A program made the translations under genes and the position numbers. 32,523 nt of DNA from an uncultured Lachnospiraceae bacterium (GTDB lineage: Bacteria; Bacillota; Clostridia; Lachnospirales; Lachnospiraceae), in the NCBI GenBank assembly GCA_902800325.1, contig CADCDW010000044.1, positions 1 through 32,523 on the forward strand. Reading direction: 5' to 3'. Shown piece after piece: positions 22,223-27,478 of this stretch (position 1 is its first letter; every line of letters starts with the position of its first letter). The notes beneath the pieces were generated by a model. The model was not told where the DNA came from. It did not search any database and saw only the letters and a program-made list of their open reading frames with translations.

Positions 22223-23695
22223 TCATGTATGTCTCACCACTTCAAATCTGTATAAATCACAGCCTTCTTCATCCGGCTCAAGTCCTGCCTTTCTTTTTGC
22301 TATAGAAAGCTGTTCCTCTATGGTATCGACGCCATCAAGATTAGGCAATAAAAGTCCCTGTTTGTTGCCTTTTCTCACAATTACACCATACCTTATAACA
22401 TCGAGCTCATCCTCAGATGCTATAGGCTCTATCTCCCCTAAAACATCTACATTTATCTCAAGTTCAAACAATTCCTCTTTCCTTACAGGTGAAAACCTTG
22501 GGTCACGTGTTGAAGCACTAATCGCATTTTCTATTATTTCCTCAGCAAGGCAATCTTTGGTCGGAGCTATGGTTCCTATACAACCTCTCAATGCTCCGTT
22601 TTTATGTATAGACACAAAAGCTCCCGCCCTTCGTTTTGTCAGCTCCTCATGCACATCCGAGTTTGAATCTCTTTCCTGAAGCTGCTCGGCTGTAAGCATT
22701 TCCGTCGAGCCGGTTCCGGTTGATAAAACGCGCCTTTTCACATTTTTCCATGCTATTTTTTCATGTGTAATTATATAATTTTCAAGTGAAAGACGTGCAA
22801 GCTTTACATATGCATCTTCTTTTTTTCTCATATTTAAAATCTTATTTCTATATCTTATATGCCACTTTTCAAGCATATCTCTTTCTTCGTCCACACCTTT
22901 GTTTTGATATGTACATACACCATATCCCACACCGGTTATATCCTGGTGTGAAAGTTTTTTTGTCTCAACTGCCGTACAGTCAAGTGCCCCTGCCATCATA
23001 ACAAACGAACGATGACCGCACTCTGCCGCCTTGTCTAAAAAGCTTTCTTCGAACTCAAACAGTTCGTCAAATGCCGCTCTTCCCATTACGTCCATTATTC
23101 GTTCATCATAAAGAGGTCCTTCCGGGACAAATCCATACGGCCCATATTCTTCTAATTTGTGTGACAGGTCACCACTTGCTACATAGCAGACTCTACGTCC
23201 CAGATTTTCGGCCGTCTCTTTTATAGCCATTCCCAGACGATAATGCTCCTGCATCGGCTCACCCGAAAGTCCGATTCGCACCAGCTTAAAATCAGTATAT
23301 TTTTTCATTATAAAATATAGTGGCACCATAGTTCCATGATCAAGTGCCGCACTTTTTTCTCCAAGTGTCCCTGCCGGTATCCCGTTTCTTTCTGCAATTT
23401 CACAAAGAGAATCAACAAATTCCGCATCATACTTTACATCAAATGTCACTTCAGGAGCATCAAATCTTGCAAATGAACCTTTTGCGCTGCTTCCCGGTGA
23501 GATATGAAAATAGTCACCATACATCACACTATGCGGCGAAGAAACGACTATAGTATCCGGCTTGATATCTGCTATCATATCTGCCACATATTCATAGCTT
23601 TGGCTTGTTTCTTTTATCGACTCCTCACTTCCGCATCCGACCTCCGGCACTATCATCGGCGGATGCGGGACCATAAATCCTGCGACAATTCCCAT
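22223..23695 (-). CDS. Memo-like dioxygenase-fold / AMMECR1 fusion (AmmeMemoRadiSam A+B)
   Basis: A 490-residue fusion. Residues 1 to about 275 are the Memo/LigB class III extradiol-dioxygenase-like domain (FMVPHPPMIVPEVG, VVSSPHSVMYGDYF, ALDHGTMVPLYFI, VASGDLSH). Residues about 305-490 are an AMMECR1 domain with ALRGCIGTIAPTKDCLAEEI and STRDPRFSPV. In many genomes these are two genes next to a radical SAM gene, as here, where amrS is 101 nt upstream. The biochemical product is not established from sequence; a modification or cofactor role is proposed in the family. GGAGGGG lies 8 nt before the ATG. Confidence 0.92.
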   Translation of the reverse strand: MGIVAGFMVPHPPMIVPEVGCGSEESIKETSQSYEYVADMIADIKPDTIVVSSPHSVMYGDYFHISPGSSAKGSFARFDAPEVTFDVKYDAEFVDSLCEIAERNGIPAGTLGEKSAALDHGTMVPLYFIMKKYTDFKLVRIGLSGEPMQEHYRLGMAIKETAENLGRRVCYVASGDLSHKLEEYGPYGFVPEGPLYDERIMDVMGRAAFDELFEFEESFLDKAAECGHRSFVMMAGALDCTAVETKKLSHQDITGVGYGVCTYQNKGVDEERDMLEKWHIRYRNKILNMRKKEDAYVKLARLSLENYIITHEKIAWKNVKRRVLSTGTGSTEMLTAEQLQERDSNSDVHEELTKRRAGAFVSIHKNGALRGCIGTIAPTKDCLAEEIIENAISASTRDPRFSPVRKEELFELEINVDVLGEIEPIASEDELDVIRYGVIVRKGNKQGLLLPNLDGVDTIEEQLSIAKRKAGLEPDEEGCDLYRFEVVRHT

Positions 23696-23796: not shown

Positions 23797-24651
23797 TTAT
23801 ATATTTCCCTCATATACATACTCAAGTTTTTTTCTTGCAAGCTCTGCCAGCTTAATTATACTTTCCACTGTAGTAGGTTGTCTATCTTTATATTCACTTC
23901 TTGGAAAAAATCTTGATATGTGTAGCGGTATTTTTTTATCATATCTAACCTCCAGCTTGCGAACCCACGAAGAAAGCTTTCTCATCTCGTCTTCAGAATC
24001 ATTTTCTTCGGGTATAATGAGCGTGGTAAGCTCAACATGTGCAAATGATAGCGCACGCTCGATAAAATCTTTCGTTGTCTTAAAATCACCCTTCAATACT
24101 TTTTTATAATAATCTTCATTAAAACATTTTAAATCTATATTAAACGCATCTATATAAGGCTCGATTTCATCCAATACCCATGTATTTACAGAGCCGTTTG
24201 TAACTACAATATTTTTCATACCTGCTTCATGGACAAGCTTCGCCGTATCGCGTACATATTCATATCCGACAAGCGGTTCATTATAGGTATATGCTACACC
24301 TATGTTGCCTCTGTCCTTTAGATTTACTGCTATACCACAAAGTGCCTCCGGTAGCAGATACTCGGTATCCGGCACTGTTCTTCCATCTGCCAAGGATATA
24401 CTTACATTTTGACAAAAAGGGCACTTTAAGTTACAGCCATAGCTTCCAACGGAAAGGATCATGCTTCCCGGATAAAATCTGTTCAGAGGCTTCTTTTCTA
24501 TCGGGTCAAGTGCAAGCGATGTAATATATCCAAAACTTTTTGATATTATATTATTACCTTTACATACTCTCGCAAGACATGCACCCGTTTCACCTTCGGA
24601 AAGAGTGCAGCCTCGAAAGCAGACATTACATTTTAGCTTTTCATTTATCAT
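23797..24651 (-). CDS. amrS: AmmeMemoRadiSam radical SAM enzyme
   Basis: A 284-residue radical SAM protein. The cluster motif is CNLKCPFC in SYGCNLKCPFCQN (about residues 73-81). An N-terminal Cys set (CNVCFRGCTLSEGETGACLA) precedes it and may bind further metal. TYNEPLVGYEYV, IVVTNGSVN and IDAFNIDLKCF match the SAM barrel of AmrS/PflA-like enzymes. It is followed by the Memo/AMMECR1 fusion in the same operon. Only AAAGG, 11 nt off, is available as ribosome binding site, so translation could be controlled by the structured leader upstream. Confidence 0.92.
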   Translation of the reverse strand: MINEKLKCNVCFRGCTLSEGETGACLARVCKGNNIISKSFGYITSLALDPIEKKPLNRFYPGSMILSVGSYGCNLKCPFCQNVSISLADGRTVPDTEYLLPEALCGIAVNLKDRGNIGVAYTYNEPLVGYEYVRDTAKLVHEAGMKNIVVTNGSVNTWVLDEIEPYIDAFNIDLKCFNEDYYKKVLKGDFKTTKDFIERALSFAHVELTTLIIPEENDSEDEMRKLSSWVRKLEVRYDKKIPLHISRFFPRSEYKDRQPTTVESIIKLAELARKKLEYVYEGNI

Positions 24652-24723
24652 TTTATATTAAACCTTTAGATATTTGTCACATAACTGTTCAATCAAGTCA
24701 TTTTACGCAAATTACATAACTTT

Positions 24724-24823
24724 AGTATCCGGCTGGAGTGTGTTACTTCGCATCATCTCATATTTTTGGAAAAGACACCTCCACTACCTGCAAGCAGATA
24801 TACCTCTCGGGACCGGATACTTT
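24724..24823 (-). ncRNA. structured 5' leader RNA of amrS, unassigned class
   Basis: On the minus strand, transcription from the promoter at 24830-24858 should begin near 24823, one or two bases before a stem of 9 bp formed by AGTATCCGG (24813-24821 complement) and CCGGATACT (24724-24732 complement). Inside are a 7-bp hairpin (TATCTGC/GCAGGTA, 24785-24800) and a longer arm closed by TGGAG-GTGT/ACAC-CTCCA (24734-24743 with 24775-24783). The layout is a three-way junction. One pair in the small hairpin is U·G only on the minus strand, which supports that strand. No terminator follows before the weak amrS ribosome binding site. I could not match it to a named riboswitch. Confidence 0.6.
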
Positions 24824-24829
24824 ATTATA

Positions 24830-24858
24830 AGTATAATATTATGATTTAGTTTTTTCAA
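24830..24858 (-). promoter_or_regulatory. promoter of the amrS leader and operon
   Basis: TTGAAA (24853-24858), 17 bp, TATACT (24830-24835), directly before the structured leader. Confidence 0.75.
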
Positions 24859-24919
24859 TATGGTTTTAAATATCATTTTTACATTAAATAATGTTTACCA
24901 CTATCGCTCTATTCTGTCT

Positions 24920-25025
24920 ACATTTTTATGTGGAATTTTGTAGGTTGTATTTACATTTTTATGAGGGTTTTCGCAGGTTATATTCGCATTTTTATGAGCG
25001 ATATTTAATTCTTGTTTTTATGACG
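24920..25025. repeat. 33-bp degenerate tandem repeats
   Basis: Units start at 24920, 24953, 24986 (28 bp, shortened) and 25014 (partial), each opening with (A/G)CATTTTTATG or a close variant. They fill the gap between the amrS promoter and the end of the large surface-protein gene. Confidence 0.75.
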
Positions 25026-25078: not shown

Positions 25079-27478
25079 TTAATACCAGCCTCCGACATTA
25101 CTAAGTGACCAACCATCAACCATATCAGTCAGATTACCCTGTTCATCGAGCCTAATACCAAAGCTGGTAACCATCGGATCTGACGTTAACGGATGCTCGC
25201 ACAAAAACTTTATATCTCCTTCATATGCTGTACCATACGGTATATATATTGTTGCATTTTCTATCACAATTTTGCTGTGCTCGTCAGGTATATCATCACC
25301 GTTAGTATCAGCAACTAATGCATAACACGAATCATACCCGTCACTTTCAAGCCAAGCGGCACTTCCCGTATGATATGTTACACCATCATCTCCAAGAAGG
25401 GTAATATCCGAGCGCGATTCAAGAACAGCTTCTCTTGAAACAACTGTATAATTTCTTCCCAGATGTGTAAATGTACCTGCATCTATATAACCATAAAACT
25501 TATCTGCCGGTATGCAATTAGGTATTGTCAGTTTTCCGACCATTTTATATCCTGTACCGGTATCTGTTATATCATATGTATAACCCCAGATTTCAACATC
25601 TCCGTCTGCTCCGCCACCACTATCACTAAGCATCTGACTGTCAATCATATTTACATCAAACCTACTATATAAGTTATGTCCAAATATAATTGATATTTCA
25701 TCGCCTGCCGCCATGGTATTATCATCCTGTGATTCAGTACCTTCCTCTGTCAAACCTGCGTCGGCATTGTACTGATTAAAGAGCTCATCGTTTCCGTATG
25801 AACACTCAGGCACTTTACCATACGGTCTTATACCGGGAACTTCCTCATAGTGCTCATTCCACCTGAAAAGTGCATCTTCTGCTGCCAGAATATCAAACTC
25901 AAGTTCAAATTTTTGAATTATGCCATTGAAATAAATATTGGCCTTTACTACAGGAAATGAGATATTAAAGTCGGTACATATCATACCGTTGTCTCTTTCT
26001 GCGACCTCTAAATCTGCAAGTGCTCCTGCCTTGACTCCGGCACCTATTATATCCCATATCCAAAGGACATAAAGCTTGGCATCCAAGTTTACCGAAATCA
26101 TAGCTTCTCCTTCAAATTTGGGTTGAATTGAAGGCACACCTGTAAAATCATAATCCTTAATGGATTTTATACCACTTCCCTGTTCCTGTCTTACACATAC
26201 GCTTGTCGGAAGTGTTGCAACAATTTCAAAATGTCCCTCTGCCGTAAGCTGAAGATATATTTCAAAATCAAGACTCACAAACCCCATTTCAAATGGAACA
26301 TTGATATGTGCTATCGGTATCTTAAAATCATCCTCTCCTGTTTCAAGAGTGAAATCACCGGTTATCTCTGTATCCATATCAAGTCTGTATTCGGCATATT
26401 TTTTGCTGTCATCAAATTGAAAATATGTTGTGTCCGCTGCTATCTTTATATCGGTAAATGCAATGGATAAAGATCCGGCTGCATTATCATTAAGCTGAAT
26501 CGGACTTAAGTATTTGGCAGATTCACCGTTTTCATTATTGGAAATCTCTATACCCAGGTATTTACCCTCAAATGTATCATTTTCCTCTACCGAAAGCTTA
26601 ACCTCAAAACCTTCTGATGTAGTATCATAATTAAATGCTTCACTTCCATTAGTTACAAAATGGTTATTATCATAATCTACGGTATCGAAACTCACATCTG
26701 CAGCATAATTGACCGGAGCAATCGTCTTACTTATCAGTTTCCCCTCTATCGCACCGCTTTTTACTATATCCTCATAAGAAATGCTTGTTTTGTCTGATAA
26801 ATCAAGCTCTGTAACTACATCAGATATCTCCGGCTGAGACATATGGCATGCACCGGATTCGTCAATAGAATCAACTTTTCCCGCTCTTTTACAGCCAATG
26901 CTGTCTGTATAAATGATTATATCTCCCTGATTAACTACAGAATTATCCGCAAAGCTTACAACCGAGCCATCATCATTTACCGTGGCGGTATTGGTCGCAT
27001 CAAGCTCCTTTACACCATCCTTATACTCTGCTTCGCAGTAGTCGTCCAACCACAAATCATCAGTATAAATCTCATTGTATCTGGCAAGGATTTCCTTACA
27101 CTCATCTTGATTGAAATGCTTCTTATCATCTTTTATAAGTCCGTAATCCTTTGCAAGCTTGTAATAATCCTCATCAGTATAGCTTCCTATATCATCTATA
27201 ATTCTTTCATACTTATGTGTACTGATAGTCTTCATAGCTGTTATAGCTATAAGCTTGTCGTCTGCTAAACTGTCCGCCTCATATCCGTTTGGAAGTACTA
27301 TATCATCACAGCCTGTATGCTCTGCCAACATACTAATCCACTCTGATGCTGTAACATAGTTCGAATCTGAAATCTTTTTTGATTTTTTCCCCGATAAAGA
27401 AATAACGATAGCAACTACTGCAATTATTATACTTACACATATGCTGATTAGGATTAAGCATTTTTTCTTATTCATCAT
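25079..27478 (-). CDS. large membrane-anchored extracellular protein, unassigned
   Basis: A 799-residue protein. An N-terminal membrane segment (CLILISICVSIIIAVVAIVI) lacks a clear lipobox or signal-peptidase site, so a signal anchor is likely. Residues about 40-145 look SLH-like or alpha-helical (VTASEWISMLAEHTGCDDIV, YYKLAKDYGLIKDDKKHFNQ). The rest is beta-rich and acidic with Thr/Ser/Asp content typical of surface proteins, including LVADTNGDDIPDEHSKIVIE. It ends in an aromatic GGWY. No catalytic motif was recognised. AGGAG lies 9 nt before tandem ATGs (27478 and 27475). It is a single-gene unit. The function is not known. Confidence 0.8.
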   Translation of the reverse strand: MMNKKKCLILISICVSIIIAVVAIVISLSGKKSKKISDSNYVTASEWISMLAEHTGCDDIVLPNGYEADSLADDKLIAITAMKTISTHKYERIIDDIGSYTDEDYYKLAKDYGLIKDDKKHFNQDECKEILARYNEIYTDDLWLDDYCEAEYKDGVKELDATNTATVNDDGSVVSFADNSVVNQGDIIIYTDSIGCKRAGKVDSIDESGACHMSQPEISDVVTELDLSDKTSISYEDIVKSGAIEGKLISKTIAPVNYAADVSFDTVDYDNNHFVTNGSEAFNYDTTSEGFEVKLSVEENDTFEGKYLGIEISNNENGESAKYLSPIQLNDNAAGSLSIAFTDIKIAADTTYFQFDDSKKYAEYRLDMDTEITGDFTLETGEDDFKIPIAHINVPFEMGFVSLDFEIYLQLTAEGHFEIVATLPTSVCVRQEQGSGIKSIKDYDFTGVPSIQPKFEGEAMISVNLDAKLYVLWIWDIIGAGVKAGALADLEVAERDNGMICTDFNISFPVVKANIYFNGIIQKFELEFDILAAEDALFRWNEHYEEVPGIRPYGKVPECSYGNDELFNQYNADAGLTEEGTESQDDNTMAAGDEISIIFGHNLYSRFDVNMIDSQMLSDSGGGADGDVEIWGYTYDITDTGTGYKMVGKLTIPNCIPADKFYGYIDAGTFTHLGRNYTVVSREAVLESRSDITLLGDDGVTYHTGSAAWLESDGYDSCYALVADTNGDDIPDEHSKIVIENATIYIPYGTAYEGDIKFLCEHPLTSDPMVTSFGIRLDEQGNLTDMVDGWSLSNVGGWY

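Follow-up and report, generated by a model that had tools for sequence, protein, structure and literature searches.

The element upstream of amrS in the window (a 32,523-nt stretch of DNA from an uncultured Lachnospiraceae bacterium) is a strand-specific structured RNA of 98 nt that is preceded by a promoter signal, belongs to a family found in scattered Lachnospiraceae genomes and is genomically independent of amrS. It is very probably a stand-alone RNA gene. We consider it reasonably likely, taking the evidence together, that this small RNA gene encodes a four-way-junction structural RNA that acts in trans and is probably bound by a protein. The first-pass annotation, which had interpreted the region as a leader RNA of the AmmeMemoRadiSam genes, is therefore partly supported: a functional, strand-specific structured RNA with a promoter was upheld, but a role as amr leader was not.

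A promoter and a four-way-junction RNA upstream of amrS

All features of the locus described here are on the minus strand. A -35 box, TTGAAA (24853..24858), can be read directly and is separated by a 17-nt spacer from a -10 box, TATACT (24830..24835). Promoter scoring picked the same pair with a score of 10 out of 12, in agreement with the strong promoter noted in the first-pass annotation. The predicted transcription start, at about 24823, lies at the foot of stem P1, and eight bases separate TATACT from the 5′ strand of this stem. P1 is formed by AGUAUCCGG (24813..24821) and CCGGAUACU (24724..24732), which pair over 9 bp and close 98 nt, as had been described. The conserved unit enclosed in this way (24724..24821; P1, P2, P3 and P4/P5) was delimited by three covariance models (R1-R3), 65 homologues, covariation and the predicted fold.

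Within this unit, P2 is a small hairpin with a GAGA (GNRA-type) loop (24803..24810) that is present in both the family alignment and the fold. P3 is a hairpin (24785..24800) in which one pair is variable within the genus, being U24798.G24787 in the window, C-G in L003 and U-A in L004 and L005. P4 (UGGAG/CUCCA and GUGU/ACAC, with one bulged base) and P5 together occupy 24734..24783 and end in an AU-rich apical loop. P5 pairs 24771-24774 with 24746-24749 in the register of the family model, from which the minimum-energy fold of the window copy departs slightly in this stem. The compact junction had been read as three-way; it is four-way, because the additional hairpin P2 (24810-24803) adjoins P3 and P4.

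A 103-nt stretch of the window has a predicted folding energy of -33.3 kcal/mol (z -3.08, with 1 of 200 shuffles as good), and the whole 207-nt interval has a z-score of -2.22 (3 of 200 shuffles as good). The RNA element was found once in the window's own genome. No U-run follows P1 in the window copy, while one is present in a congener (L207). The leader had been proposed to reach to amrS; the RNA is structured as claimed, but its conserved unit stops at 24724 and is separated from amrS by 72 nt of AU-rich DNA. amrS encodes a radical SAM protein (23797..24651, PF04055), and a LigB-AMMECR1 fusion protein is encoded at 22223..23695 (PF02900 and PF01871).

Covariation supports the structure and fixes the strand

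Two alignments were used to evaluate the structure. In an 11-row MAFFT alignment, which was not fitted to the model although the structure was picked by eye, 92.9% of 350 cells from P1 to P5 were paired, 18 pairs had double changes (12.7 when shuffled) and the covariation score was 0.561 (0.212 when shuffled). RNAalifold recovered nearly the same fold without a given structure, with double changes in 21 of 33 pairs. In the family-model alignment of 65 homologues, which was fitted to the model and whose pair counts are thereby biased in its favour, 93.4% of 2074 cells were paired and 26 of 32 pairs had double changes, compared with 18.2 when shuffled. The corresponding covariation score was 0.574, versus 0.196 for shuffled and at most 0.147 for slid versions. 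Double changes occurred in 9/9 pairs of P1, 2/3 of P2, 4/6 of P3 and 11/14 of P4/P5. Six copies folded singly had z-scores of -1.32 to -3.95, the weakest being L126 (-1.32), for which 26 of 200 shuffles were as good.

Covarying stems beyond close strains had been named as a check in the first-pass annotation, and P1, P3, P4 and P5 do covary across the 65 homologues. Conserved, covarying structure is what a stand-alone structured small RNA should have. The covariation had been expected upstream of amrS homologues, but the window's genus was the only one in which we found the RNA next to amrS.

The 65 homologues contain 200 G.U and 19 A.C cells (105 and 19 without the two most G.U-rich pairs), which fixes the strand. 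The minus strand had previously been proposed from a single U·G pair, which does exist (24798.24787). Conserved letters cluster at C.GTTCCGGGAGGAG and GGTGTC / AACAC / GC.G, and the junction and the bulges hold the conserved columns. The P5 loop, of 14-21 nt, is variable in length and sequence. Three homologues (L198, L201 and L203) have the P4 core GUGU/ACAC replaced by GCAU with AUGC-like partners.

The RNA family is patchy within Lachnospiraceae

In a DNA search of 195 relatives, 4 of the 36 other genomes of the genus (G020, G024, G004 and G014) matched strongly. These four congeners are 95-98% identical to the window within the element and differ in the flanks. The same search gave an 82% match over 53 nt in a genome of another genus (G107). 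Model R1, built from six sequences, matched at least 9 of 397 family genomes, the window's among them. Model R2, which followed the 11-sequence alignment, matched at least 61 of 397, with one copy each and 53 of the 61 at E < 1e-15. At least 5 of 344 order-level genomes were matched, all of them from Lachnospiraceae, and at least 3 of 199 phylum-level genomes, namely the window's and two with weak matches judged to be chance. In total, the covariance models yielded 65 good homologues, comprising the window, four congeners and 60 other Lachnospiraceae genomes.

When up to 99 candidates per genome were examined, 20 of 23 further genomes of the genus lacked the RNA, so the patchy distribution looks real. 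A search of 40 RNA-negative family genomes with the later model R3 gave just two weak matches, which were also judged to be chance. One incomplete homologue (L204, 29 bits) was left out of the 65-row counts and kept in the 61-locus context counts below. P4/P5 is largely or wholly missing from the two weak matches outside the family (L216 and L217; 27.2 and 23.3 bits) and from the two in control genomes (L233 and L234; 25.9 and 24.6 bits), whose own folds differ from that of the family; all four were taken as chance. L233 matches in P1 and P2, yet it falls within a same-strand reading frame of 220 aa; L234 is a less clear case that was treated likewise.

Transcription signals and genomic context point to a stand-alone gene

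A promoter score of at least 9 out of 12 was obtained for 49 of 65 homologues, compared with 3.5% of 2340 upstream control windows, and in 50 of 65 the distance from the end of the -10 box to P1 is 5-8 nt. A promoter of its own at the 5′ end of the RNA is a further property of a stand-alone small RNA. Downstream of P1, a T-run of at least four within 14 nt is present in 27 of 64 scored homologues (10.5% of controls) and missing from 37, as it is from the window copy. Two homologues (L178 and L189) directly adjoin a same-strand tRNA gene.

We inspected the surroundings of 66 copies, up to ~4.5-5 kb per side where the contig allowed, with flanking genes called by a simple longest-ORF rule. Leaving aside the window's group, 61 loci remain; counting genes of at least 100 aa, the first one downstream of the RNA is encoded on the opposite strand at 34 of them and on the same strand at 23, and 4 have none. 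At 11 of these 61 loci a same-strand gene lies within 150 nt. The RNA therefore has no general position upstream of and in line with a gene, the arrangement of a cis-acting leader, which is seen in 5/5 loci of the window's genus. In G107, the genes on either side of the RNA and its own promoter are both on the opposite strand, which was a first sign against a leader role. Several observations speak against the stand-alone, protein-bound reading: T-runs are missing from the copies noted above, amrS is next in all five congeneric loci, a same-strand gene is next at 23 of the 61 others, the folds of single copies vary in strength, and no protein partner was found.

Neighbouring genes did not show the consistent association with a gene family that a riboswitch or leader would have. 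The largest cluster of neighbouring proteins covers nine loci at scattered distances. The neighbour scan comprised 112 flanking proteins (proteins above 900 aa, and 3 of the remaining 115, were left out), among which hits to 191 Pfam families were recorded, each in at most four proteins. A link to defence islands was considered and rejected, as PADLOC on the 112 proteins gave 68 families, none with more than four members, and no pattern. Four loci from three genera (L125, L166, L170 and L181) have common neighbours on both sides and represent one conserved chromosomal position. Four Spo0A_C matches among the flanking proteins may be the upstream genes of these four loci.

Comparison with known RNAs

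To our knowledge, few regulatory RNAs have been characterised in Lachnospiraceae, a major bacterial family of the gut and the rumen. The comparison with Rfam suggested in the first-pass annotation was run, and none of the 4227 models of Rfam 15 matched the window or eight distant homologue loci (L112-L119) at the gathering threshold. When the window stretch, L115 and L118 were scanned permissively, there were either no matches or only chance-level ones to lncRNAs. Searches of open-access main text with consensus strings and by topic found no paper tied to the RNA. On these two grounds we regard it as a new family of a known kind, and therefore call it a new family of orphan stand-alone structured RNAs; the comparison with the 3161 published microbiome motifs was by their descriptions only.

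These 3161 candidate motifs were found by covariation in gut bacteria of human microbiomes (PMC8040213). One of them, HMP2_1881 (108 bp), resembles the window RNA in being near radical SAM domains and is set apart by its description as predominantly from Bacteroidetes (PMC8040213). Clostridiales-1 (RF01699) and Gut-1 (RF01706) are bacterial and are tabled as probable RNAs that are not cis-regulatory (PMC2864571). They are alike in being orphan stand-alone structured bacterial RNAs; the window RNA differs in having no match to the RF01699 and RF01706 models. A strongly covarying family outside Rfam 15, for which an alignment, a promoter and a copy from a phage are available, is a target in the search for a new RNA-protein complex or regulator.

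Possible modes of action

In the mechanism that we propose, a housekeeping-type promoter would start transcription at the foot of P1, and the RNA would fold into a compact four-way junction of ~98 nt with its 5′ and 3′ ends paired in P1. Transcription would often stop at the U-run after P1, or the RNA may be released from a longer transcript, as might be the case for the two homologues that abut a same-strand tRNA gene. The mature RNA would most likely be a trans-acting structural RNA that a putative protein recognises. A stable separate transcript, action in trans and a protein partner are thus putative parts of this reading. The conserved junction, the GNRA-type hairpin, the GUGU/AACAC element with its bulges and the variable long loop suggest that the fold is what is recognised, most simply by a protein. 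We regard binding by a protein rather than antisense pairing as an even call.

A possible but improbable alternative is that the small RNA works in trans by antisense pairing, its P5 apical loop binding to mRNAs. This would agree with a stand-alone gene that has a promoter and frequently a U-run, and the 14-21-nt loop is the sole long unpaired stretch; however, a conserved seed would not differ between copies as this loop does in both length and sequence, and it is the junction that is conserved instead. In addition, Hfq (PF17209) was detected in 0 of 80 family genomes, while the control found PF17209 in Escherichia coli and Bacillus subtilis among others. This makes a classical Hfq-aided antisense RNA less likely, and we rejected an Hfq-dependent sRNA; Hfq-free antisense RNAs are known in Gram-positives.

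Y RNAs, the partners of Ro60 (TROVE) proteins, are small RNAs with paired 5′ and 3′ ends, a feature that the window RNA has in common with them. The difference is that a TROVE protein was detected in 0 of the 80 family genomes, 40 of which are RNA-positive. Together with the result for Hfq, this makes a Y RNA or an Hfq RNA unlikely, and an identity as a Y RNA was rejected.

Phage copies and mobile elements

Viral contigs were searched with five pattern scans, and the candidates were then scored with R3. One phage contig (L223) has an intact copy of the RNA (89.7 bits). It is oriented against the phage genes, with a helicase/resolvase block on one side and a transcription regulator plus terminase on the other. 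A second viral contig (L210) has only the 5′ half of the RNA (28.3 bits). In the latter, a short DNA methyltransferase (methylase) frame runs antisense into the RNA 5′ half (L210:8835-9317), as if joined by a deletion. The window's own 21-mer had no match in the viral contigs, and one further viral match (L232) and 12 of 13 16-mer matches were not confirmed by R3. Two queries against 50,697 phage and 72,556 plasmid records gave no match.

These copies raise the alternative that the RNA belongs to phages and integrative elements as an accessory and has been retained by hosts, for example in phage-host conflict, for which we see a modest chance at best. The position of the L223 copy between replication and late genes, the half copy in L210 and the patchy presence of the RNA (at least 61 of 397 genomes across the family and 4 of 36 others within the genus) are consistent with this alternative, as are the 10 of 61 copies that lie within 310 nt of a tRNA (six of them tRNA-Ala), compared with 4 of 84 control gaps, and the two serine recombinases among the 112 flanking proteins. 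On the other hand, the family tallies of flanking proteins have no phage pattern, the loci L125, L166, L170 and L181 show the RNA at the same chromosomal position in several genera, and the two queries against the phage and plasmid records found no match. At two loci (L162 and L191) both a tRNA-Ala and a serine-recombinase-like gene are near the RNA, and these are perhaps integration hot spots.

Speculatively, the family would be a new class of stand-alone four-way-junction RNA that forms the RNA half of a ribonucleoprotein in Hfq-less Lachnospiraceae, with the phage copies hijacking the same partner or acting as its decoy, an extension that we put forward as a tentative idea.

The RNA is independent of amrS outside the window's genus

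Riboswitches and protein-sensing leaders have a compact junction and a conserved core. The window RNA is similar in its junction core and in preceding amrS in the window's genus; it differs in that the downstream gene across its family is more often on the opposite strand and belongs to no common family. The promoter, the RNA and amrS are in line in 5/5 congeneric loci, window included, with 16-79 nt between the RNA and amrS, and a LigB-AMMECR1 gene is near the RNA in three of the five. In L208 and L209 the gap is 16 nt, which leaves little room for a separate promoter. Because the RNA and amrS are so close, amrS may be read from the RNA's promoter in the window's genus, and the RNA may have a local second role there as a 5′ UTR.

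A cis-acting leader of amrS, whether a riboswitch or a protein-sensing RNA, is nevertheless very unlikely to be the function of the family. Among the best 80 of 571 loci of amrS relatives, the RNA is present at three, all of them congeners, and in the stretches surrounding the 61 other copies a search at E 1e-5 revealed no relative of AmrS or LigB-AMMECR1. We compared 40 of the 60 R2-positive genomes other than the window's with 40 family genomes without a listed match: AMMECR1 was found in 9 of the 40 RNA-positive genomes (31 had no match) and in 7 of the 40 RNA-negative ones. A close relative lacks the RNA at the corresponding site: the two loci L032 and L033 have the upstream gene and amrS in common, and L032 has no RNA between them. 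Finally, the fold of the 207-nt interval pairs part of the amrS ribosome binding site with bases upstream of the predicted start, which would be missing from the transcript. An amr-linked role was rejected on the basis of the amrS loci, the neighbours and AMMECR1 co-occurrence. The proposal of a sensing leader for the AmmeMemoRadiSam genes is thus not borne out, with no common neighbour elsewhere and more downstream genes on the opposite strand than on the same strand. It had also been suggested that the ligand of the RNA would inform what this system makes. What the RNA binds would probably not reveal the AmmeMemoRadiSam product, and a false lead is removed.

A structured DNA element, such as an attachment or recombination site, would fit the tRNA proximity, phage copies and patchiness, but is barely credible given the excess of G.U over A.C on one strand and a promoter whose distance to the RNA is almost constant in 50 of 65 copies.

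Further upstream of the RNA in the window, a 799-aa protein without a Pfam match is encoded at 25079-27478. Between this gene and the RNA promoter, degenerate direct repeats around ACATTTTTATG / GCATTTTTATGAG can be seen by eye at 24918-25022.
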